A stretch of DNA of 7,038 nucleotides from an uncultured Oscillospiraceae bacterium (lineage in GTDB: Bacteria; Bacillota_A; Clostridia; Oscillospirales; Oscillospiraceae), in NCBI GenBank assembly GCA_900757695.1, contig CAAEOU010000273.1, forward strand, positions 1 through 7,038, given 5' to 3'. Of the stretch, positions 1-7,038 are shown piece by piece (within the stretch, counting starts at the first letter, position 1; each line of letters opens with the position of its first letter). The position numbers and the translations under genes are program-made. The notes beneath the pieces were generated by a model. The model did not search any database, had not been told where the DNA came from, and saw only the letters and a list, made by a program, of their open reading frames with translations.

Positions 1-1197
1 GGATGCCAGAACCCAATAGCAGTTCCATTCTTCCGCCAACACATTCATCCAGCGCCATGCCAGCGGCAGCAGCTTCAAGGGCAATGCATTGTGGGCCTCA
101 TCCACAAAAATGACGCTGCCCGGCAGCTCATGAAATCTGCGCAAGGTCGAAGGATGCCCAGAAGCCATGGTTCCAAAGAAAGCTACTGCTGTGGTTACGA
201 TGATCGGCGCACGCCACAGCGATGTAAGATAACGCGTATCATCGTCCTCAAAATCGGCACGGAAATGCAGCTCGGCCACAACCTCATCCGGACGTTCTCC
301 CGGCAGCAGCAGCGCTTTCCGATAGACGTCCACTGATTGCTGAATGATGCTGGTGTAAGGCAAAATAACAAAGACGTGCCGCGCCTTCCGCTTGATCGCC
401 TGTTTCAAAAGATGAGCCATCACTGCAGTGGTCTTTCCAGAGCCAACCGGACTGTCACATGCAGAAAATGATTCGCTTATCTCCATATTGCGGCACGCCG
501 TATACATTTCGCTTCGAAGCTGACTCCGCTCCCCTTCTCCGCCCAGCTGCGACACATACCGATCCAGCGCCGCAAGCCGTTCCTCTGCACGTAATTGCGG
601 CATTTCCTCCGTCTCAGGTGCCTGTCCATATGCTGCGGCGGTATCCGTATGATCCGCATCTGCCAGACAGGAAAGCACCATCCGACCAAATACGCTGTGG
701 TCACCCTCATATTTCTGCATTGGGGCCACGTTTTCTTGCGGGAACACGGAACGATGCCGGGCAAGCAGCATTGGTAACGCATCATCCACCAGCTTCCGGG
801 TTGCCGGATGTTCATCCCGGAACATATTTTCTTGTCTCGATTCCTCCGCTTCCATATTGGGTAGGCCGCGATGATGAGCATACACCGCAAGGGCAGAAAA
901 GGCGTTGATGTTCTTCAAAACCGCACTACCCGCATCTACGTGATTCACCGGCAGGTGGCGCGCCTTCCCGGAATCATCATGCAGGGTATCCTGATTTTTA
1001 TCTCCCAGCTTTCCTAAATCGTGCAGTTCAGCACTTTTCTGTACTGCGGAAACCAGGCTTTCCTGCCCCTCAGAGGCATATTGTCCTGCCTCGGTGGCAT
1101 ACTTCAAGGCTCGGCGGGATACCCCTTCCACATGGTCGTGGTATGTTTGCGGCGGATAACCGTCTTTTCCGCTGTGGGCAAAGTACTCACGGGTCAT
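1..1197 (-). CDS. cas3: Cas3 HD nuclease-helicase, 3'-partial (first 399 residues)
   Basis: Signature nuclease-helicase of type I CRISPR-Cas, which Cascade recruits to nick, unwind and degrade target DNA. The reading frame is open from ATG 1197 to the window edge, giving 399 codons; the family is usually 700-800 residues, so about half is missing. The N-terminal HD domain shows His8 (FAHSGK), His59-Asp60 (LHDLGK), His86 (NHVDAG), His108-His109 (AHHRG) and the acidic DADHTD stretch at 180-185. The helicase part shows Walker A (SPVGSGKT, 249-256) and the DEAH box at 366-369 (FVDEAHN). The RecA2 domain would lie outside the window. The start overlaps the cas7 stop as ATGA (1197-1194) and has only a weak GGTGA ribosome site, so translation is probably coupled to cas7. 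Its place after cas7 is unusual for subtype I-C, where cas3 normally leads the operon. Confidence 0.95.
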   Translation of the reverse strand, partial: MTREYFAHSGKDGYPPQTYHDHVEGVSRRALKYATEAGQYASEGQESLVSAVQKSAELHDLGKLGDKNQDTLHDDSGKARHLPVNHVDAGSAVLKNINAFSALAVYAHHRGLPNMEAEESRQENMFRDEHPATRKLVDDALPMLLARHRSVFPQENVAPMQKYEGDHSVFGRMVLSCLADADHTDTAAAYGQAPETEEMPQLRAEERLAALDRYVSQLGGEGERSQLRSEMYTACRNMEISESFSACDSPVGSGKTTAVMAHLLKQAIKRKARHVFVILPYTSIIQQSVDVYRKALLLPGERPDEVVAELHFRADFEDDDTRYLTSLWRAPIIVTTAVAFFGTMASGHPSTLRRFHELPGSVIFVDEAHNALPLKLLPLAWRWMNVLAEEWNCYWVLAS

Positions 1198-2063
1198 AAA
1201 TTCACCAAATCAACGCAGCTTTCCACACGGGGCAGCAGATTCTCCGGCAGCATCTCCTTGTCCTCATAATCCGCCCAGGTGGTGGAGGGCTCGTCCTTGT
1301 CGCCGAGCTTTTTCGGAGTCAGGGCTTCCAGGAGCAAATACTCCGGGCAGCTTCCCAGCAGATTTTTGTGCTCCACATACCATGCGTGGCGGATGCGGAC
1401 ATCGGGCCGGACTGCGGAACGGTTCTGCTCATAGGCATGGGGAATCAGCAGCTTCAGGAGTTCAATATCCTCTGCGGTGCAGCCGGTTTTATGCGCATAG
1501 TTGGGATTCACGAAGAACGGCATGCAGTATACGCCATGCTCTACAATGCGGTAAGCCAGCGGGGCCATACCGGCGTTCTTTCCCTCCTGGACACCGGCTT
1601 TGTTGGTATTGGTCTGCCGTACAATCTCAATCGGTGCCAGAGAAACGCCCATGCCAAACTGCACGACACCCGTTTTAATGAACCCCTTGTCTCCGCCGTC
1701 CTCCAGGAACGTGTTGCCAAAGACCCGGGCATCCCAATATTTCTGCACAAACTCGCTATTGAGGAAATCCGCCGGTGTTTTCCCCATTTCCGCTATGATT
1801 TTCTTTCTATCTCGACCACGGTGCTCCAGAATGAAGTAGTGATCCGGATTGCCGCTGAACTGCTCCGGCAGTGCGCGGAAGAACGGCGCGTCATGGTCGT
1901 CCAGCAAGTCACGGAGTTTACGCTTAAAGGAGACCGGCGAAATTTCGCCAAGACCGTTGGGGCGCTGGCGGGGATCGCTTTCCCGATCCGGATCGCCATT
2001 GGGATTCGAATTTACAACTTCAATAATCAACAGGCCGGTAGCACGTTTCAGTTCACTGCTCAT
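1194..2063 (-). CDS. cas7: Cas7 (Csd2 type) Cascade backbone protein
   Basis: A 289-residue Cas7 of the Csd2/Csh2 family. In the family, several copies polymerise along the crRNA spacer and form the backbone of Cascade. Visible motifs are NSNPNGDPD (18-26) near the N-terminus, GLGEISPVSFKRKLRDL (37-53), YWDARVFGN (109-117), TGVVQFG (131-137) and the hydrophobic core stretch around 170-187. Length is normal for I-C Cas7. The ATG at 2063 is supported by GAGGAGG nine bases upstream. The gene overlaps the end of cas8c by 11 bp and its TGA overlaps the cas3 ATG by 4 bp. Residues 28-36 (ESDPRQRPN) occupy the place where other Cas7 proteins of this family carry a similar PRQ-type loop. The family assignment is firm; the subtype rests mainly on the neighbours. 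Confidence 0.93.
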   Translation of the reverse strand: MSSELKRATGLLIIEVVNSNPNGDPDRESDPRQRPNGLGEISPVSFKRKLRDLLDDHDAPFFRALPEQFSGNPDHYFILEHRGRDRKKIIAEMGKTPADFLNSEFVQKYWDARVFGNTFLEDGGDKGFIKTGVVQFGMGVSLAPIEIVRQTNTNKAGVQEGKNAGMAPLAYRIVEHGVYCMPFFVNPNYAHKTGCTAEDIELLKLLIPHAYEQNRSAVRPDVRIRHAWYVEHKNLLGSCPEYLLLEALTPKKLGDKDEPSTTWADYEDKEMLPENLLPRVESCVDLVNL

Positions 2064-2481
2064 TTACGGTATCCTCCTCAGTTTTTGTCTCGTTTTTTTC
2101 ACTTTTCGGAAACGCAGCAAGGTAGCCGATAAACATCTGCGCTTTTTCTTCCTCATTTAATCGGGTCTGCATCGTCCAGTTTTGCTTGATTTTTTCCGTA
2201 ATATCTTCGCAGAGACGATACAGCCATCCCGCTCGCCAGCTTTCCTTTCCCTCGATCTGAATGCCCTGCAGGCGATAGCTTTTGGCCCACTGATAATAGG
2301 GTGCAATTCGCTGGCTCAGCACGTTCAGGGTTCGAACCGGCGCTTCCACCGCAGCCAGGAACAGACCGCCTCCGGCCAATTGCGGCGGAATTTCGCCCTT
2401 CCGCACTACTTTGCAATAGAGGACGTGCAGTTCATCGGCTGCCTTGAGCAGCTGCCCATAGAGATATGGTAGGTTGTCCAT
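2053..2481 (-). CDS. cas11: Predicted internally initiated small subunit Cas11c (142 aa, in frame within cas8c)
   Basis: In type I-C systems the small Cascade subunit is known to be made from an internal start within cas8c and to stabilise the non-target strand and R-loop. Here an in-frame ATG at 2481 (residue 540 of Cas8c, MDNLPYLYGQLL) has AGAAAGGA at 2489-2496 with a 7-base spacing, a better initiation context than the other in-frame internal ATGs inspected. The product would be 142 residues, mainly helical and leucine/alanine rich, sharing the Cas8c stop at 2053. Size and C-terminal placement agree with known Cas11c proteins. The DNA signal is seen directly; independent translation is inferred. 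Confidence 0.62.
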   Translation of the reverse strand: MDNLPYLYGQLLKAADELHVLYCKVVRKGEIPPQLAGGGLFLAAVEAPVRTLNVLSQRIAPYYQWAKSYRLQGIQIEGKESWRAGWLYRLCEDITEKIKQNWTMQTRLNEEEKAQMFIGYLAAFPKSEKNETKTEEDTVNEQ

Positions 2482-4098
2482 ATAATCATCCTTTCTGATG
2501 CCATTCCGATAAAGGAAAAGTCCCAGCAGCGCCAACATGTTTTTCGCATCATTCCATCTTGGATGATACCAATCCTTTGTCGCGCTCAAATTCCCCAGAT
2601 AAGCACTTAGCATGACAGCATTTTCCGCCAGCAGGTGGAAATCCGAACACACTGACATGGCAGGCTCCATCAGCAGCTCCATGCCGTGGTACCGGGGAAT
2701 CGGCTTAAACCGATCGGTTGCAAGCTCTCCGCTTTGCTTCCAGGGGCGATTGAGCGTGTCTGCAATGTCCAACGGATATGGTACTTCCGGCGCGCCGAAC
2801 GGGAACTTTGGCAGGTTGGTGCAGCCCAGGGTCCATGCCTCGCTGGCTTGCTCCAGTTCATCGGGATCTGTTTGGCGGGTGTAGACCACTTTGGTGCGTG
2901 CCTTGTCGATTTTGTGGAGAACGAAAATCTGGATTCCCTCGGCATGGCTGTCTGTCCCGGGCTTTCTTGTTTTCCGGAGCTGCTGGGTAAACTGCTCTGC
3001 CTTCGTTGTAAATTGGATGGTTTCATTCCTCAGCCGCTTGAACGGCGAGATATAAGAAATGTTGTAATCCGGCGCTGCCATCGGATATACGAATATGATC
3101 TCATTTTGATCGGATTTCGTCCAGGTCTTGTCCTCCCGATCCCGATCACCGATCCATGCCAGCGCCGCTTGTAGCTTTCCGCGTACATCCGGCGAAATAG
3201 GATAGCTGGCACTGTCAATTCGGCCGTATCGGGTCTGGCACCGCTGCTCCTTAAACATCGTGCGAATGGTCGCATCGAATCCGCCTGCCAGTTTTACGCT
3301 GGGCATAGGTGTCTCATCAGCCATGAACGGAATGCCAAACGCGTCGATCGTATCCGTTTGACCGGATGGCTGCTGTGCGGCTTCCGCATTCAATAAGCAT
3401 TGATTCATCCCGGTGACAAACTTCTCACTGATTGCCGGTATGCCGGACTCAATCAGACTTGTGGATTCCAGCGCAATAGAAAGGCTGCCGAAGTCATCCT
3501 CTGCATCTTCCGCTGGCTTTCCCAGATAAAACAGCAGCGTCAAAGCTGCCTGGACATTTTCGCGCCGCTCCAACATTCTCCATATGGCATTCTCCAGCTC
3601 TGTATGAAATACATTCGGATTCTTATATTCCTCAACTTCTGCAAGCAGTGCCTGAAGCGGCGCATACCCCGGTGCAATCTTGCGGAGCTGTGCCGGAGTA
3701 TTGTCCAGGGAAACCTTATATTTTCCCTGGAACTTCTTGCTCCAGTTGTTCTCCGTGCACCAGCTCTTCACTTCTTGAAGCATTGCAGCATTCAGCGTTT
3801 CCGGATGGCTCATAATTCCGGCAATGCTTTTCTTGATCGTATCGTCTGTAATTCGATACAGCGAGGCTAGATTCATGCATGGAAAGCTGCCCTGATTGGA
3901 GCCATATTTCCGCAGAATGGTGCCGTATTTGGTGTCGAGTATCGAAATCTTCGACACTTTTCCATCCGAGAGCGTGATGCAAATACACGGTGCATTCGCA
4001 CGGATATTGGGGATCGGCTTGTATTTCTGATGCCATTGATAGGTCTCGATGTTCGCCCCGGCCAGTGCCTCGGATAGGGTATACAGCTCATTAATCAT
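2053..4098 (-). CDS. cas8c: Cas8c (Csd1-like) large subunit, divergent
   Basis: A 681-residue large subunit lying between cas5 and cas7, the position of cas8c/csd1 in I-C operons. In the family, Cas8c recognises the PAM, holds the target and recruits Cas3. The sequence is only distantly Csd1-like: length, central layout (IRTMFKEQRCQTRYGRIDSA, then a helix KLQAALAWI, then a strand EIIFVYP) and a C-terminal helical region ending in LNEEEKAQMFIGYLA match the plan, but the usual NAPVSE-type motif of Csd1 is not apparent. An ATG at 4098 is chosen over the in-frame TTG at 4104 because AAGGAG lies nine bases before the ATG and only three before the TTG, and because this start overlaps the cas5 stop as ATGA (4098-4095). 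The C-terminal 142 residues are probably also made separately as Cas11c. Alternative: a distinct Cas8 subtype using I-C-like partners. Confidence 0.85.
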   Translation of the reverse strand: MINELYTLSEALAGANIETYQWHQKYKPIPNIRANAPCICITLSDGKVSKISILDTKYGTILRKYGSNQGSFPCMNLASLYRITDDTIKKSIAGIMSHPETLNAAMLQEVKSWCTENNWSKKFQGKYKVSLDNTPAQLRKIAPGYAPLQALLAEVEEYKNPNVFHTELENAIWRMLERRENVQAALTLLFYLGKPAEDAEDDFGSLSIALESTSLIESGIPAISEKFVTGMNQCLLNAEAAQQPSGQTDTIDAFGIPFMADETPMPSVKLAGGFDATIRTMFKEQRCQTRYGRIDSASYPISPDVRGKLQAALAWIGDRDREDKTWTKSDQNEIIFVYPMAAPDYNISYISPFKRLRNETIQFTTKAEQFTQQLRKTRKPGTDSHAEGIQIFVLHKIDKARTKVVYTRQTDPDELEQASEAWTLGCTNLPKFPFGAPEVPYPLDIADTLNRPWKQSGELATDRFKPIPRYHGMELLMEPAMSVCSDFHLLAENAVMLSAYLGNLSATKDWYHPRWNDAKNMLALLGLFLYRNGIRKDDYMDNLPYLYGQLLKAADELHVLYCKVVRKGEIPPQLAGGGLFLAAVEAPVRTLNVLSQRIAPYYQWAKSYRLQGIQIEGKESWRAGWLYRLCEDITEKIKQNWTMQTRLNEEEKAQMFIGYLAAFPKSEKNETKTEEDTVNEQ
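2489..2496 (-). promoter_or_regulatory. Internal Shine-Dalgarno for Cas11c
   Basis: AGAAAGGA on the minus strand, 7 bases before the in-frame ATG at 2481 in cas8c. It decides the predicted start of the small subunit. The motif sits in codons for residues RKD, so it could also be coincidental coding sequence. Confidence 0.55.
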
Positions 4099-4763
4099 CG
4101 GCAATCACTCCTTACCGGATACTCCAGTACCCCCTGATGGATGCACAAATCCGTATCGTACACCGCTTCATAGTTGGAACGATACCCCTGCTGAAATACA
4201 CCCCGCAGCATGGACGGAATGTGAATGTCCGGGAGGTCTGTGCAAACCTGTGTTGTATCCCGAAACGGCCCAAAATAGGACGGTGTGAACTCGCTCCAGC
4301 CCAGCGACAACGTCGCATAGGATTGGCCGCGCGTTAATCGGCGGTAAAATATTTCCTGATATGCATGACCCGGCGAGGTAGTTCTATGGTCCCATTGCTG
4401 CGCCTTTTTGGGGAACTTCGCTTTATCCGGATTGTGAATTACGTCGGCATAGAGCCGATAGCATACATCGGTCAGTACCGTTGCGTAAAGCTGATAGTTG
4501 TTGCCCTTTTTGATGGAATCGCTCTTGCGCAGGGGCCCGCCATAGTTGGTGACATAGGAATGGTATTGCGGGACAGTGCAAAGCTCCACCTTCCGCGGAA
4601 TAATCAAAACCGCAGGCCCCCAGAGGATGCTCTCAAAAAGGCCCCGAACTGCGGAATAGGTCGGTGCCGGGTAGCTACAAGGTGAGTCGCCGCTGTCCGG
4701 TCTGGTCCACATCGCCGTGTTCCCGGCTATCTCCATTTCAACGGGGTATGTTTTATGTACCAT
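4095..4763 (-). CDS. cas5: Cas5 (I-C/Cas5d type), atypical residues at the RNase positions
   Basis: A 222-residue Cas5 of the Cas5c/Cas5d type. In I-C systems, which lack Cas6, this protein cuts pre-crRNA and then caps the 5' handle in Cascade. Family marks are AMWTRPDSGDSPCSYPAPTYSAVRGLFESILWGP (17-50) and EIFYRRLTRGQSYATLSLGWSEF (137-159), which aligns with the MFxRRxxxGQ...LGxREF block of known Cas5d proteins. In that alignment the usual Lys-His pair just before the block becomes Ala134-Tyr135, and the Tyr of the I-Y-W-K-P segment becomes Leu47. His133 and His126 are nearby candidates for replacement. The start is ATG 4763, with AAAGGAG (4773-4779) nine bases upstream. It is the first gene after the operon promoter and its TGA overlaps the cas8c ATG. 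The catalytic comparison is from memory of family members, so the assignment is firm but the activity is not. Confidence 0.9.
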   Translation of the reverse strand: MVHKTYPVEMEIAGNTAMWTRPDSGDSPCSYPAPTYSAVRGLFESILWGPAVLIIPRKVELCTVPQYHSYVTNYGGPLRKSDSIKKGNNYQLYATVLTDVCYRLYADVIHNPDKAKFPKKAQQWDHRTTSPGHAYQEIFYRRLTRGQSYATLSLGWSEFTPSYFGPFRDTTQVCTDLPDIHIPSMLRGVFQQGYRSNYEAVYDTDLCIHQGVLEYPVRSDCR

Positions 4764-4816
4764 TGCTTCACGCTCCTTTGCTGCGTGTTGGATGTTTTGA
4801 TTTCTGATTTAATGGC

Positions 4817-4845
4817 ATCATAGCATGGTTTCCATGTGTTGTCAA
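4817..4845 (-). promoter_or_regulatory. Sigma70-type promoter of the cas operon
   Basis: On the minus strand TTGACA (4845-4840) and TATGAT (4822-4817) are separated by exactly 17 bp. Transcription would start near 4810, giving a leader of about 47 bases before the cas5 ATG at 4763. This is the best promoter seen in the window and indicates that the cas operon has its own promoter rather than depending on mobC transcription. Confidence 0.82.
4824..4836. promoter_or_regulatory. 13-bp palindrome in the cas promoter spacer (candidate operator)
   Basis: CATGG-AAA-CCATG (minus strand) is a perfect 5-bp inverted repeat with a 3-base centre. It lies wholly between the -35 and -10 boxes, a place where a bound dimeric repressor would block RNA polymerase. 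No regulator gene is in the window. It may be chance, since the palindrome is short. Confidence 0.4.
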
Positions 4846-4979
4846 TTAGGCGCAGATTCAGTGTGTAATATTCCGGACACTTCTTTGAACCTCCTCTGAC
4901 AATTATCTTCTCGGTCATTAGTGCCCTTCACTAAGGGTCCCACCGAAGCCGCACCATTGCCACTCCGGCGCGCCCCTCT

Positions 4980-5291
4980 TTATATCATCTTCCGGCTAAT
5001 CTCCTCCACGATCCCCCGGAACTCCGCTACCGCTTCATCATACTTCTCCGCATCAATGCTCCCCAGCGCATTGGCCTTCCGGGCAATCTGGTTGAGGTGA
5101 TTGCCGCAATAATAGAGCTGCCGCATCATCGGGTAGAAGTCCGGGGGCGGCAATTCTCTGGGCTGAATCCCGTCGATGAGCTTCCGCAAATAGACCTCCC
5201 GGCTCAGTCCGCTTTTCTGGACAGCGGTATTGAGGCGGTCTAGCTCTGTATCCGTCAGGCGGAGAAAAATTCGGTTGTTTCTTGTTCGCAT
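4980..5291 (-). CDS. mobC: MobC-family relaxosome accessory protein
   Basis: A 103-residue protein resembling plasmid mobilization protein MobC. In the family it binds oriT next to the relaxase, helps open the DNA and so assists nicking for conjugative transfer. The N-terminal part (about 5-40: RIFLRLTDTELDRLNTAVQKSGLSREVYLRKLI) looks like a ribbon-helix-helix DNA-binding fold; the C-terminal part carries the MobC-like stretch NHLNQIARKANALG (64-77) and an amphipathic helix. ATG 5291 is chosen because GGAGG ends five bases before it; an in-frame TTG at 5303 lies within the ribosome site itself. A relaxase gene normally follows mobC on the same strand, but here the next sequence is the cas promoter region. 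Upstream lie the oriT-like hairpins and then an IS110 element. Confidence 0.85.
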   Translation of the reverse strand: MRTRNNRIFLRLTDTELDRLNTAVQKSGLSREVYLRKLIDGIQPRELPPPDFYPMMRQLYYCGNHLNQIARKANALGSIDAEKYDEAVAEFRGIVEEISRKMI

Positions 5292-5303
5292 TACGACCTC
5301 CAA

Positions 5304-5363
5304 TCTAAGGGGTTACAGGGTCCTGCCCCTGTCAGGCTGCCTTTGGGCGTCCAAAGGCGATGC
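5304..5363 (+). other. Candidate origin of transfer (oriT) with two hairpins
   Basis: This short intergenic stretch next to mobC has two inverted repeats: ACAGGG/CCCTGT (5315-5320 with 5327-5332) and the perfect 8-bp GCCTTTGG/CCAAAGGC (5339-5346 with 5351-5358). The first encloses TCCTGCCC (5321-5328), resembling the MOBP nick sequence ATCCTG|C of RP4-type origins. A nick after 5325 on the plus strand would send the DNA to the right first and mobC last, the usual polarity. The right arm of the second hairpin is part of the target used by the IS110 element. Location next to mobC is strong context; the nick site is inferred. Confidence 0.5.
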
Positions 5364-5369
5364 TTGCGA

Positions 5370-5375
5370 TATAAT
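5370..5375 (+). promoter_or_regulatory. -10 half of the circle-junction promoter (IS left end)
   Basis: TATAAT starts 4 bases after the TT core. In the integrated form no -35 box lies 16-18 bp upstream. In the excised circle the right end supplies TTGACT, with a 17-bp spacer made of 11 right-end bases, the TT core and GCGA. This fits the known IS110 arrangement in which joining the ends switches on expression of the bridge RNA and recombinase. Confidence 0.75.
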
Positions 5376-5382
5376 TAGCACG

Positions 5383-5640
5383 ACGACAGGGCAGCATTTT
5401 TGAATAAACATTGCTCTTTCTTTACTTCGTAAATTTGACAGTGGTAAATCAAAAATTCCCCCTGGCCGTCTCAGTTCCTAAGGTATAATGAAGGGGATCG
5501 GTCTGACGAGGCGATGCATGAGCTGCTACGCTCGTAGAGCAAACTGTCAGCCGCCCCTCATTGTATCGTTCGATTTATGCAGGTTGAATTAAAGGAGCCA
5601 GCTCCAACATTCGTATAACAACGCAAGCTGAATCGGCACT
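5383..5640 (+). ncRNA. IS110 bridge RNA (guide-containing core 5487-5636; 5' end uncertain)
   Basis: Bridge RNAs of IS110 elements pair one loop with the target and another with the joined donor ends, guiding the recombinase. The target loop is closed by CTGAC/GTCAG (5503-5507 with 5546-5550), extended outward by GG/CC, GGGG/CCCC (5493-5496 with 5554-5557) and AATGA/TCATT (5487-5491 with 5558-5562), and has an inner hairpin CTAC/GTAG (5526-5529 with 5534-5537). Its left side (5509-5517) equals the left flank 5355-5363; its right side (5538-5543) is complementary to 7030-7035. The donor loop is closed by an 8-bp stem with two G-U pairs (5570-5577 with 5629-5636) and has inner stems GAAT/ATTC and GGAG/CTCC. 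Its left side (5579-5585) equals the right end 7025-7031; its right side (5622-5626) is complementary to 5364-5368. The start near 5383 is inferred from the -10 box; a small hairpin (TTTAC/GTAAA, 5421-5433) lies in that 5' part. Confidence 0.86.
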
Positions 5641-5682
5641 GAGTAACGGCGGTCACCGAATATGATTAGGAGGTTGAAATCC

Positions 5683-6924
5683 ATGACAAACAACATCATC
5701 ACAGCTGTCGGCATTGATGTCTCCAAAGGAAAAAGCATGGTTGCCATACGGCGTCCAGGTGGAGAGGTTTTGCGTATGCCTTTCGAGGTGAAACACAACA
5801 CTACTGATCTGAAAAGTCTCATCAAACTTCTCAAGCAAATTGGCGGAGAAGTGCGGATCGTCATGGAGCATACCGGAACCTACTGGTATCCAATTGCGCG
5901 GACATTACATGAAGCCGGTTTCTTTGTAAGCGTTGTGAATGCAATTCTGATTCATAATTTCAGTGATAATTCACTTCGGAAGGTTAAGACAGATAAAGCA
6001 GATGCCCTAAAGATTGCAAACTATGCCCTAGCCTTTTGGGGCACACTTCACCAATATACGCCAGAAGAAGAGACTCGGCTCATACTAAAGACGCAGAGTC
6101 GGCTATACGAAAGGACAATTGATACCAGTGTCGTTCTGCGAAATGGACTAATTTCTCTGCTGGATCAGACGTTTCCGGGGGTGAATAAACTGTTCACTAC
6201 CGCATACAGAAACTCTTCCGGCCATTACAAATGGGTAGATTTCGTCAGACGCTTCTGGCATCGTGATTGTGTCGCTGGCGTGTCAGAACGTTCTTTCTCG
6301 GAATCCTATGCAAAGTGGTGTACACACGAGGGCTACCAATATTCAGCAGCATGCGCAGCCCGCATATACCAGGCTGCGAAGCAAGCGGTTGCAGTATTTC
6401 CGAAGAATGACAGTGTGAAAGCACTTATTGTTCAAGCAGTGGATACGCTGAATGCTGTTTATGCTTCGCTCCAAGTGATGCGAGAGGAGATGCAGCGCCT
6501 GGCCGAGCAGCTTCCAGAATACGAAATCGTAATGGGGATGTATGGTGTTGGTGCCGTAACTGGCCCACAACTCATTGCGGAAATTGGAGATGTCCGTCGC
6601 TTTACGAATAAAGCAGCTCTGGTAGCGTTTGCCGGAGTTGACGCGCCGCCATACCAATCAGGAACATTCGATTCAAAGTCCCGGCATATTTCCAAGCGAG
6701 GCTCTCCGCATTTAAGGAGGATTGCATTCATGGTCTGTTCGGCAATTCTCCAAAAGAGCAATCCCAACAACCAAGTTTATGCATTCATGGACAAAAAGCG
6801 AGCGGAAGGAAAGCATTTCTATGTCTATATGGTTGCGGGAACTGCAAAATTTCTGCGGATTTACTACGCCCGTGTAATGGAGCACCTAAATTCACTGGAG
6901 TCTACAGAACAGATTCCAGCATAA
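5683..6924 (+). CDS. IS110-family DEDD recombinase (transposase)
   Basis: A 413-residue recombinase that, with the bridge RNA, joins the element's ends and inserts the circle at a guide-specified target. The N-terminal RuvC-like DEDD domain shows Asp12 (VGIDVSKGK), Glu62 (VMEHTGTYW), and Asp104 and Asp107 (VKTDKADALK). A helical middle part follows. The C-terminal Transposase_20-type domain shows the helix-hairpin-helix-like MGMYGVGAVTGPQLIAEIGDV (285-304), Ser326 in PPYQSGTF, the probable catalytic serine, and SKRGSPHLRR (337-346). ATG 5683 is chosen because AGGAGG (5668-5673) lies nine bases upstream; an upstream ATG at 5662 would put that site inside the gene. Length is normal and there is no frameshift. 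Tandem TAA stops end the gene. Having its guide RNA upstream places it in the IS110 group rather than IS1111. No outside promoter is evident in the integrated form. Confidence 0.97.
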   Translation: MTNNIITAVGIDVSKGKSMVAIRRPGGEVLRMPFEVKHNTTDLKSLIKLLKQIGGEVRIVMEHTGTYWYPIARTLHEAGFFVSVVNAILIHNFSDNSLRKVKTDKADALKIANYALAFWGTLHQYTPEEETRLILKTQSRLYERTIDTSVVLRNGLISLLDQTFPGVNKLFTTAYRNSSGHYKWVDFVRRFWHRDCVAGVSERSFSESYAKWCTHEGYQYSAACAARIYQAAKQAVAVFPKNDSVKALIVQAVDTLNAVYASLQVMREEMQRLAEQLPEYEIVMGMYGVGAVTGPQLIAEIGDVRRFTNKAALVAFAGVDAPPYQSGTFDSKSRHISKRGSPHLRRIAFMVCSAILQKSNPNNQVYAFMDKKRAEGKHFYVYMVAGTAKFLRIYYARVMEHLNSLESTEQIPA

Positions 6925-6930
6925 TAAATA

Positions 6931-6972
6931 CTTTCGTTGAGCGAAAGCCGCCTAAGTGACGGCTCTCTTGTT
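6931..6972 (+). terminator. Tandem hairpins after the recombinase gene, possible terminator
   Basis: Seven bases after the stop is a perfect 6-bp hairpin CTTTCG-TTGAG-CGAAAG (6931-6947). A second, alternative stem AGCCG/CGGCT (6946-6950 with 6960-6964) is followed by the U-rich CTCTTGTT. The tail is weak for a rho-independent terminator. The hairpins could instead protect the transcript end or act in the element's right end. Confidence 0.4.
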
Positions 6973-7012
6973 ATGCCTAATTTCTGAACATTTGAATCTC
7001 TAAAATTCGTAC

Positions 7013-7018
7013 TTGACT
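7013..7018 (+). promoter_or_regulatory. -35 half of the circle-junction promoter (IS right end)
   Basis: TTGACT lies 11 bases before the right-hand TT core. Joined to the left end in the excised circle it is 17 bp from TATAAT (5370-5375). In the integrated form it could also drive transcription rightward: the window ends in TATA at 7035-7038, which would be a -10 with a 16-bp spacer if AT follows. Confidence 0.72.
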
Positions 7019-7031
7019 TAATTAGCAGGTT

Positions 7032-7038
7032 TGCTATA
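7032..7038. other. Right genomic flank of the IS (right half of the target)
   Basis: TGCTATA continues the interrupted mobilization-region sequence after the TT core. TGCT here, together with the core, pairs with the bridge RNA segment 5538-5543. Only 7 bases are available, so the flank's content is unknown. Confidence 0.65.

Follow-up and report, generated by a model that had tools for sequence, protein, structure and literature searches.

An IS110-group element with an IS621-plan bridge RNA beside a MobC gene in an Oscillospiraceae contig, and its oriT-like candidate target

The 3' end of the window, by which we mean the whole stretch of 7,038 nt analysed here (contig CAAEOU010000273.1 of an uncultured Oscillospiraceae bacterium), carries with high probability an insertion sequence of the IS110 group, running core to core from 5364 to 7032 and equipped with a bridge RNA of the IS621 plan; this confidence applies to the bridge-RNA element and its ends. 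The four guides of that RNA match the ends and flanks of the element, guides in related elements follow their own flanks and ends, and the two-loop fold covaries.

The element, its recombinase and its ends

The recombinase gene (5683..6924, plus strand, ribosome-binding site AGGAGG at 5668-5673) encodes a protein of 413 aa with two Pfam domains that place it in the IS110 group, namely PF01548 (E 9.2e-32, above the cut-off) and PF02371, the C-terminal Tnp domain with the catalytic serine (E 4e-19). In a profile alignment its residues D12, E62, D104, D107 and S326 fall on the catalytic residues of IS621 with a constant chain-numbering offset of 2, the IS621 residue names being those given in PMC11208158. 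A profile search of solved structures with the recombinase returned two sequences, IS621 and ISCro4. The non-coding ends measure 319 nt on the left and 106 nt on the right, and the longer, left end bears the RNA, which is the arrangement of the IS110 group and the reverse of that in the IS1111 group.

All features of the ends lie on the plus strand. The element's first bases are the left core TT (5364..5365), placed by the core-register evidence given below and followed at 5366..5375 by the right donor GCG (5366-5368) and the -10 box TATAAT (5370-5375) of a predicted circle-junction promoter. Near the other end stands the -35 box TTGACT of that promoter (7013..7018), 18 nt from TATAAT across the junction, and the joined ends of the element thus give TTGACT-N18-TATAAT. 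The left donor AGCAGGT (7024..7030), located by the guide match and by the ends of a sister clade, the right core TT (7031..7032) and the right target GCTATA (7033..7038) complete the right side; the last are the final bases of the window, which stops 6 nt beyond the right core.

The earlier note on this DNA had spoken of a new IS110 element. Its IS110 affiliation stands; its novelty is weakened, since public sequence already includes an identical recombinase (P0001, 100% over 413 aa) and since all 7,999 candidates scored in the protein search pass E 1e-10, the best of the 120 listed being identical to the window's protein.

Guides of the bridge RNA

The bridge RNA, comprising a 5' segment, a target-binding loop and a donor-binding loop, is predicted to span 5382..5650 (plus strand); the part from 5482 to 5635 is conserved and covarying, and the outer ends are put where the junction promoter would have them. 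All four guide matches that had been claimed for it are exact. The left target guide (5509..5517, plus strand) reads AGGCGATGC, identical to the left target at 5355..5363 on the same strand, and the word is also found upstream of mobC in the Subdoligranulum plasmid L134. The core positions 5518-5519 next to this guide read AT, the first base mismatching the TT core; other window-clade rows also deviate at 5518. The claimed right target word AGCAAA (5538-5543) has the reverse complement TTTGCT of 7030-7035. The left donor guide GCAGGTT (5579..5585, plus strand) equals the right end at 7025-7031, and the right donor guide CGCAA (5622-5626) has the reverse complement TTGCG of 5364-5368. Two of the matches go beyond what had been noted: the right target guide AGCAA (5538-5542) with the handshake bases AC (5543-5544) forms a plus-strand unit, 5538..5544, that is the reverse complement of 7029-7035 at 7 of 7 positions, and the right donor guide with the handshake bases GC (5627-5628) forms another, 5622..5628, that is the reverse complement of 5362-5368, again at 7 of 7.

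It would be exceedingly improbable that these matches arose by chance while the actual RNA is encoded at another place. Dinucleotide shuffling of 5376-5682, repeated 100,000 times with the element ends kept fixed, gave the left target guide word in 0.16% of cases, the left donor word in 2.1%, and the 6-nt right target and 5-nt right donor words in 15.3% and 38.6%, respectively, so that the two shortest matches are weak taken singly; all four words in order occurred in 0 of the 100,000. The earlier judgement that four such matches are unlikely to be chance therefore holds for the set, and the comparative data, in which guides track and the fold covaries, contradict a chance origin and bear out the proposed IS621-type plan.

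A decayed copy, with correct guides in an immobile element, is compatible with our preferred reading of a bridge-RNA element and is in our estimate rather improbable. The mismatching A for T at core position 5518 would fit it, though other rows of the clade differ there too, and among the relatives examined no further copy of this exact element was readable; against it stand a reading frame that is open over 413 aa and keeps all five catalytic residues, the intact ends and the matching guides.

Relatives and clades

Single-protein queries yielded nine pattern matches but no true relative in genome contigs and no pattern match in viral contigs, and an alignment query was therefore needed. A query with 34 aligned proteins gave 79 loci from genome contigs (from the best 80 of 149 relatives) and 4 from viral contigs, to which 4 loci from plasmid and phage records were added, making 87. 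One of them, L087, which is 24% identical, was left out, and the target loop could be parsed in 76 of the remaining 86, the loci without a parse being L001, L010, L026, L027, L033, L042, L072, L075, L076 and L078. Sorting into clades relied on sequence identity and on the sequences of the ends rather than on a tree. The window clade has the core TT and comprises 22 loci of about 63-70% identity (58% for L003); a sister clade of gut Bacillota has the core CT and is about 48-56% identical (e.g. L034, L047, L051 and L056). The sister clade has a junction promoter as well, with a spacer of 17 nt as judged by eye.

Some individual loci deserve mention. In L013 a second, partial bridge-RNA sequence (3607-3702) lies upstream of the one that belongs to the element and may be a copy that is nested or truncated. 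The recombinase genes L113 and L124, from the genomes of L012 and L023, each contain a TAG within the matched stretch; these copies therefore look decayed, even though they retain an end motif on either side. At the left junctions of L016 and L017 one extra C lies between CATTGC and the core.

Fold of the RNA

The target-binding stem-loop (5482..5567, plus strand) consists of an outer stem 5482-5495/5554-5567, an inner stem 5501-5507/5546-5551 and an apical stem 5520-5523/5530-5533, which together make up helices 1-4 and are supported by covariation. The donor-binding stem-loop (5571..5635, plus strand) has a lower stem 5571-5575/5631-5635 (helix 5) and an apical stem 5586-5589/5609-5612 (helix 6). 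The alignment behind this fold (A2) holds 39 RNAs, the window's and 38 of the 50 distinct RNAs prepared. RNAalifold predicted 28 pairs from it, 14 of them with two-sided changes; the by-eye donor stems are absent from this prediction, which places a 5-pair helix in that region instead. The structure that we counted has 32 pairs, made up of the 23 target-loop pairs of RNAalifold and 9 donor-loop pairs added by eye. In it, 95.8% of cells are paired, compared with 27-46% when it is slid by 1-3 columns, and 16 pairs show a two-sided change vs 8.4 in shuffled alignments, none of 500 shuffles reaching 16; the cells with two-sided change number 90 vs 27.9. Three of the four pairs of helix 6 show two-sided changes, and helix 5, which has none, says little. 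The two stem-loops proposed earlier are thus supported by covariation in the 39 RNAs. A single sequence is uninformative here, the window RNA alone folding no better than its shuffles (z -0.23), and the window matched none of 4,227 Rfam families up to E 1.

Guides in relatives

For the comparison of guides and flanks, ends were located by end motifs and not by guides, loci with missing or unfound ends were excluded (L006 and L013, which have different left junctions, are absent from the left-guide test), and only distinct guide/flank pairs were counted; the null distribution came from 20,000 shuffles of flanks among loci, with relatedness left uncorrected. Under this null, which does not correct for relatedness, the left target guide of the sister clade matches its flank at 6.08 of 9 positions vs 4.21 when shuffled (37 pairs, 0/20,000 shuffles as high), and its right target guide at 4.15 of 5 non-core positions vs 2.42 (27 pairs, 0/20,000). 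The left target guide of the window clade, under the same uncorrected null, matches at 6.81 of 9 vs 5.80 (16 pairs, 0/20,000), or at 6.67 vs 5.81 when the window itself is removed (15 pairs, 6/20,000). The right target guide of the window clade is fixed at TTGC and shows no tracking beyond it (2.74 vs 2.64, 19 pairs, 5,926 of 20,000 shuffles as high); in this test L015, whose right end was misparsed, was removed by hand, and L016 and L017 were retained despite the shift by their extra C. Covariation of target guides with flanks, which had been suggested as a check, is accordingly observed for both guides in the sister clade and for the left guide in the window clade, and not for the right guide of the latter.

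The companion check concerned the donor guides. The rows available for it numbered 70, from 69 loci and the window, seven loci having lacked a usable end or guide. The right donor guide corresponds to the five bases that open the element in 69 of them, with one locus reading TTGCC for TTGCT, and six element-start words are represented: TTGCT, TTGCG, CTATT, CTGTT, CTACT and CTCCT. Shuffles on the 7 distinct pairs did as well in 8 of 20,000 cases. Because the motif used to find element starts in the window clade includes TTGCT, part of the agreement in its rows is built in; the informative rows are the window itself and the sister clade, in which the motif fixes the core and the -10 box and leaves the bases between them free. 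All 39 aligned RNAs have the same left donor guide, GCAGGT, which fits its role but leaves it no variation with which to covary.

Core register and handshake bases

A TT core shared by both junctions had been proposed, with the right copy at 7030-7031. The left core is unchanged by our analysis, and the right one is best placed one base rightward, at 7031-7032. Since TTGC is common to both junctions (5364-5367 and 7031-7034), the register was open at the outset. The right ends of the sister clade read GCAGGT-CT, which is unambiguous and makes 7031-7032 the homologous core here. Intact sites of the form CCAACAAGC-N10-38-TGCTTGC were found at 25 places in 8 of 14 relatives' genomes, and the reversed pattern, searched as a control, had no site in the same 14. 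These sites read TGCTTGC and never TGCTTTGC, which decides the register for 7031-7032.

The ends as first drawn, with the right core at 7030-7031 and a target GC-TT-TGC, are accordingly very unlikely. TT would be shared in that register too, and the window's junction promoter would then have a spacer of 17 rather than 18 nt. The target word that it calls for, TGCTTTGC, is found in 0 of 14 genomes vs 8 of 14 for TGCTTGC, and the candidate was rejected; the unambiguous sister-clade ends and the handshake bases fit the corrected register, and the empty site in plasmid L134 reads GATGCTTGC rather than the GATGCTTTGC that would favour the earlier one.

With the core at 7031-7032, the AC after the right target guide pairs with GT, the final two bases of the donor, and the GC after the right donor guide pairs with GC, the final two of the target. 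Bases in these two places correspond to the 'handshake' scheme of IS621 as presented in PMC11208158. The second handshake pair was not apparent by eye in the sister clade.

A candidate oriT-like target in the window clade

To the left of the element lies a gene for a NikA-like/MobC relaxosome accessory protein (4980..5303, minus strand; PF21983 2.6e-11, PF05713 3.1e-07), whose start side, with a likely start ATG at 5291, faces the insertion. Directly behind it is a type I-C CRISPR effector operon with cas3c (partial), cas7c, cas8c and cas5c (1-4763, minus strand), and between MobC and cas5c is a 63-aa reading frame (4727-4918, minus strand) matching no Pfam or PADLOC family. No relaxase family was found among the window proteins scanned. 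Between the MobC gene and the core stand two inverted repeats (5316..5358, plus strand), which we read as candidate oriT hairpins: CAGGG..CCCTG at 5316-5331, recognized by eye, and GCCTTTGGGCGTCCAAAGGC at 5339-5358, with an 8-bp stem, detected computationally. The same layout is seen upstream of mobC in the plasmids L134-L137.

A hairpin beside the core is common in the clade. Under a rule that asks for a perfect stem of 6 bp or more, with the 3' arm stopping 4-9 nt short of the core, it is present in 13 of 16 distinct window-clade left flanks vs 0.28 expected from shuffled flanks, and in 0 of 38 sister-clade flanks vs 0.44 expected. The 16 exclude near-duplicates, flanks shorter than 45 nt, and two loci without the end motif, L006 and L013; among the three that fail the rule, L007 has an imperfect hairpin by eye.

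Relatives of the window's MobC were found in only 3 of the 87 loci, and the neighbourhood was therefore examined through Pfam, relaxase and plasmid searches instead. A DNA-level search of plasmids with the mobC region gave no match. The protein matches 23 plasmid records, four of them from Bacillota (Subdoligranulum, Cohnella, Pusillibacter and Monoglobus), and in all four of these hairpin-xxTGCTTGC lies about 80-200 nt upstream of mobC; an annotated relaxase follows directly behind mobC in two of the four. The Subdoligranulum plasmid (L134) reads CAAAGGCGATGCTTGC where the window's corrected empty site reads CAAAGGCGATGC-TTGC. A fifth plasmid examined, from Citrobacter, has a related layout ending in TCCTTGC.

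A relaxase domain lies within 2.5 kb of 8 of the 25 intact genome sites, vs 0.30 expected from its density, so that a position beside mobilization genes is observed for part of the sites. No such domain was matched within 2.5 kb at the other 17, one of which (L091) matches a relaxase C-terminus; the 20 proteins beside 13 of the genome sites include no relaxase family, and six sites read at 11-18 kb gave weak relaxase matches only (E 0.41-0.74). Neighbours of these six include recG, ptsI-like, parM-like and integrase genes. The surroundings were read at 20 sites; window-clade elements occupy 4 of these, and the other 16 are free of them. The 20 proteins beside 17 window-clade elements include 3 relaxases (PF03432), found in L015, L018 and L024 immediately upstream of the element. 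The element in L023 neighbours a piece of a conjugative coupling protein, and the other neighbours are regulators, integrases, a restriction enzyme, and unrelated genes or proteins of no family. By tblastn over the available stretches, mobC or relaxase matches occur in 6 of the 22 window-clade loci and none in 16, several of which are cut by contig ends.

Within groups of similar sites, similarity extends over the 70 nt printed leftward and mostly gives way to divergence right after TTGC, which would explain a right target guide frozen at TTGC; one group of about five is similar on the right side as well. Five sites (L093, L094, L098, L099 and L105) have hairpin-TGCTTGC and no nearby relaxase, share sequence on both sides and show a promoter-like stretch rightward. 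In a wider sample the exact pattern was present in 11 of 147 genomes of one order, and the reversed control in 2.

An inverted repeat and a conserved short sequence beside a relaxase or mobC gene, as expected of an oriT, are found together at the window, in 4 of 4 Bacillota mobC plasmids and at 8 of 25 genome sites, the other 17 having no relaxase domain within 2.5 kb. We consider it probable, from these sequence features, that the target of the window clade is an oriT-like site of MobC/relaxase mobile elements of gut Bacillota with a putative nick near TTGC; the reasoning on the nick follows general knowledge of oriT. A dispersed REP-like hairpin repeat unrelated to conjugation, addressed by the same bridge RNA, is an unlikely though not negligible alternative: no relaxase domain is near 17 of the 25 sites, housekeeping genes adjoin some, and REP hairpins are a known target of IS110 elements, as stated in PMC11208160. 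Against it stand the excess of relaxase neighbours (8 of 25 vs 0.30), the site upstream of mobC in each of the four Bacillota plasmids and the NikA/MobC gene adjoining the window's own site.

Target sites of the sister clade

Of 38 distinct left flanks in the sister clade, 27 end in CTC, and 27 have on the opposite strand, 2-15 nt from the core, a start codon whose reading frame leads away from it; for random positions within these loci the figure is 21.9%. CTCC words are frequent in the left target guides (L029-L086), and we take these words to resemble the 3' end of 16S rRNA. Taken together, the flanks, the start codons and the guide words suggest that the sister clade may target Shine-Dalgarno sites, reverse-complemented.

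Proposed mechanism and significance

By analogy with IS621, whose transcription, RNA binding and recombination are described in PMC11208160 and PMC11208158, we propose the following route. Excision would join the ends of the element and thereby create the predicted promoter TTGACT-N18-TATAAT, from which the left end would be transcribed. One loop of the RNA would read the target AGGCGATGC-TT-GC(T) and the other the joined ends GCAGGT-TT-GCG, and the recombinase would exchange strands at the TT cores. The conserved part of the target would consist of the hairpin, then xxTGC, then TTGC; because the element itself begins with TTGC, insertion would leave hairpin-xxTGCTTGC whole on its left, and the site may still be nicked there and the element may travel along.

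A broader idea, which we offer tentatively and hold to be somewhat less likely than not to be true in full, is that in one IS110 clade the bridge RNA has become specialised for the motif on the nick side of MobC/relaxase transfer origins. Each insertion would restore the TTGC motif at the left junction, and the element would occupy an oriT undamaged, ride conjugation and find the same address in new hosts, with the sister clade addressing ribosome-binding sites by the same RNA plan. The oriT-like address and the self-restoring TTGC appear to be new: no IS110 element targeting oriT or Shine-Dalgarno sites was reported in the titles and abstract openings of the open-access literature searched, and the term 'oriT' has 0 occurrences in the text of PMC11208160 and PMC11187229. 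Bridge recombinases have drawn interest as tools for programmable DNA editing; the element and its relatives supply naturally occurring pairs of guide and target, with TT cores in one clade and CT cores in the other, and the sequence of the window makes the handshake bases readable. Should the target be an oriT, the element would use an RNA guide to address the conjugation machinery, and the spread of such elements between gut bacteria would become directly testable.

Comparison with known systems

The closest model is IS621 of E. coli, also of the IS110 group, which according to PMC11208160 and PMC11208158 shares the DEDD recombinase with catalytic serine, the RNA in the left end, the order of left target, right target, left donor and right donor guides in two loops, the circle-junction promoter and the handshake bases after the right target and right donor guides. 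It differs in having the core CT where TT is found here, although TT also supports IS621 recombination, as given in PMC11208158. Its RNA is 177 nt long, compared with a left end of 319 nt here; the recombinase of 413 aa shows no more than a remote similarity (profile E 2.6e-23); in the present element the right target guide is reduced to the core plus GC(T); and the target is REP in IS621 and, as the sequence suggests, oriT-like in the present element. The sister IS110 clade shares the RNA plan, the fold, the GCAGGT left donor and the junction promoter, and differs in its CT core, in two variable target guides and in its Shine-Dalgarno-like flanks. ISCro4 (IS110 group, structure 9t56) belongs to the same recombinase family and is compared here through the structure-database match only. 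Another relevant case is IS4321/IS5075 of the IS1111 group, reportedly targeting the inverted repeats of Tn21-family transposons. They resemble the element described here as members of the IS110 family that would aim at a conserved feature, in their case a terminal one, of other mobile elements, but they are of the IS1111 type, with another target. Elements of that type usually carry the RNA in the right end, according to PMC11208160, whereas the present element carries it in the left.
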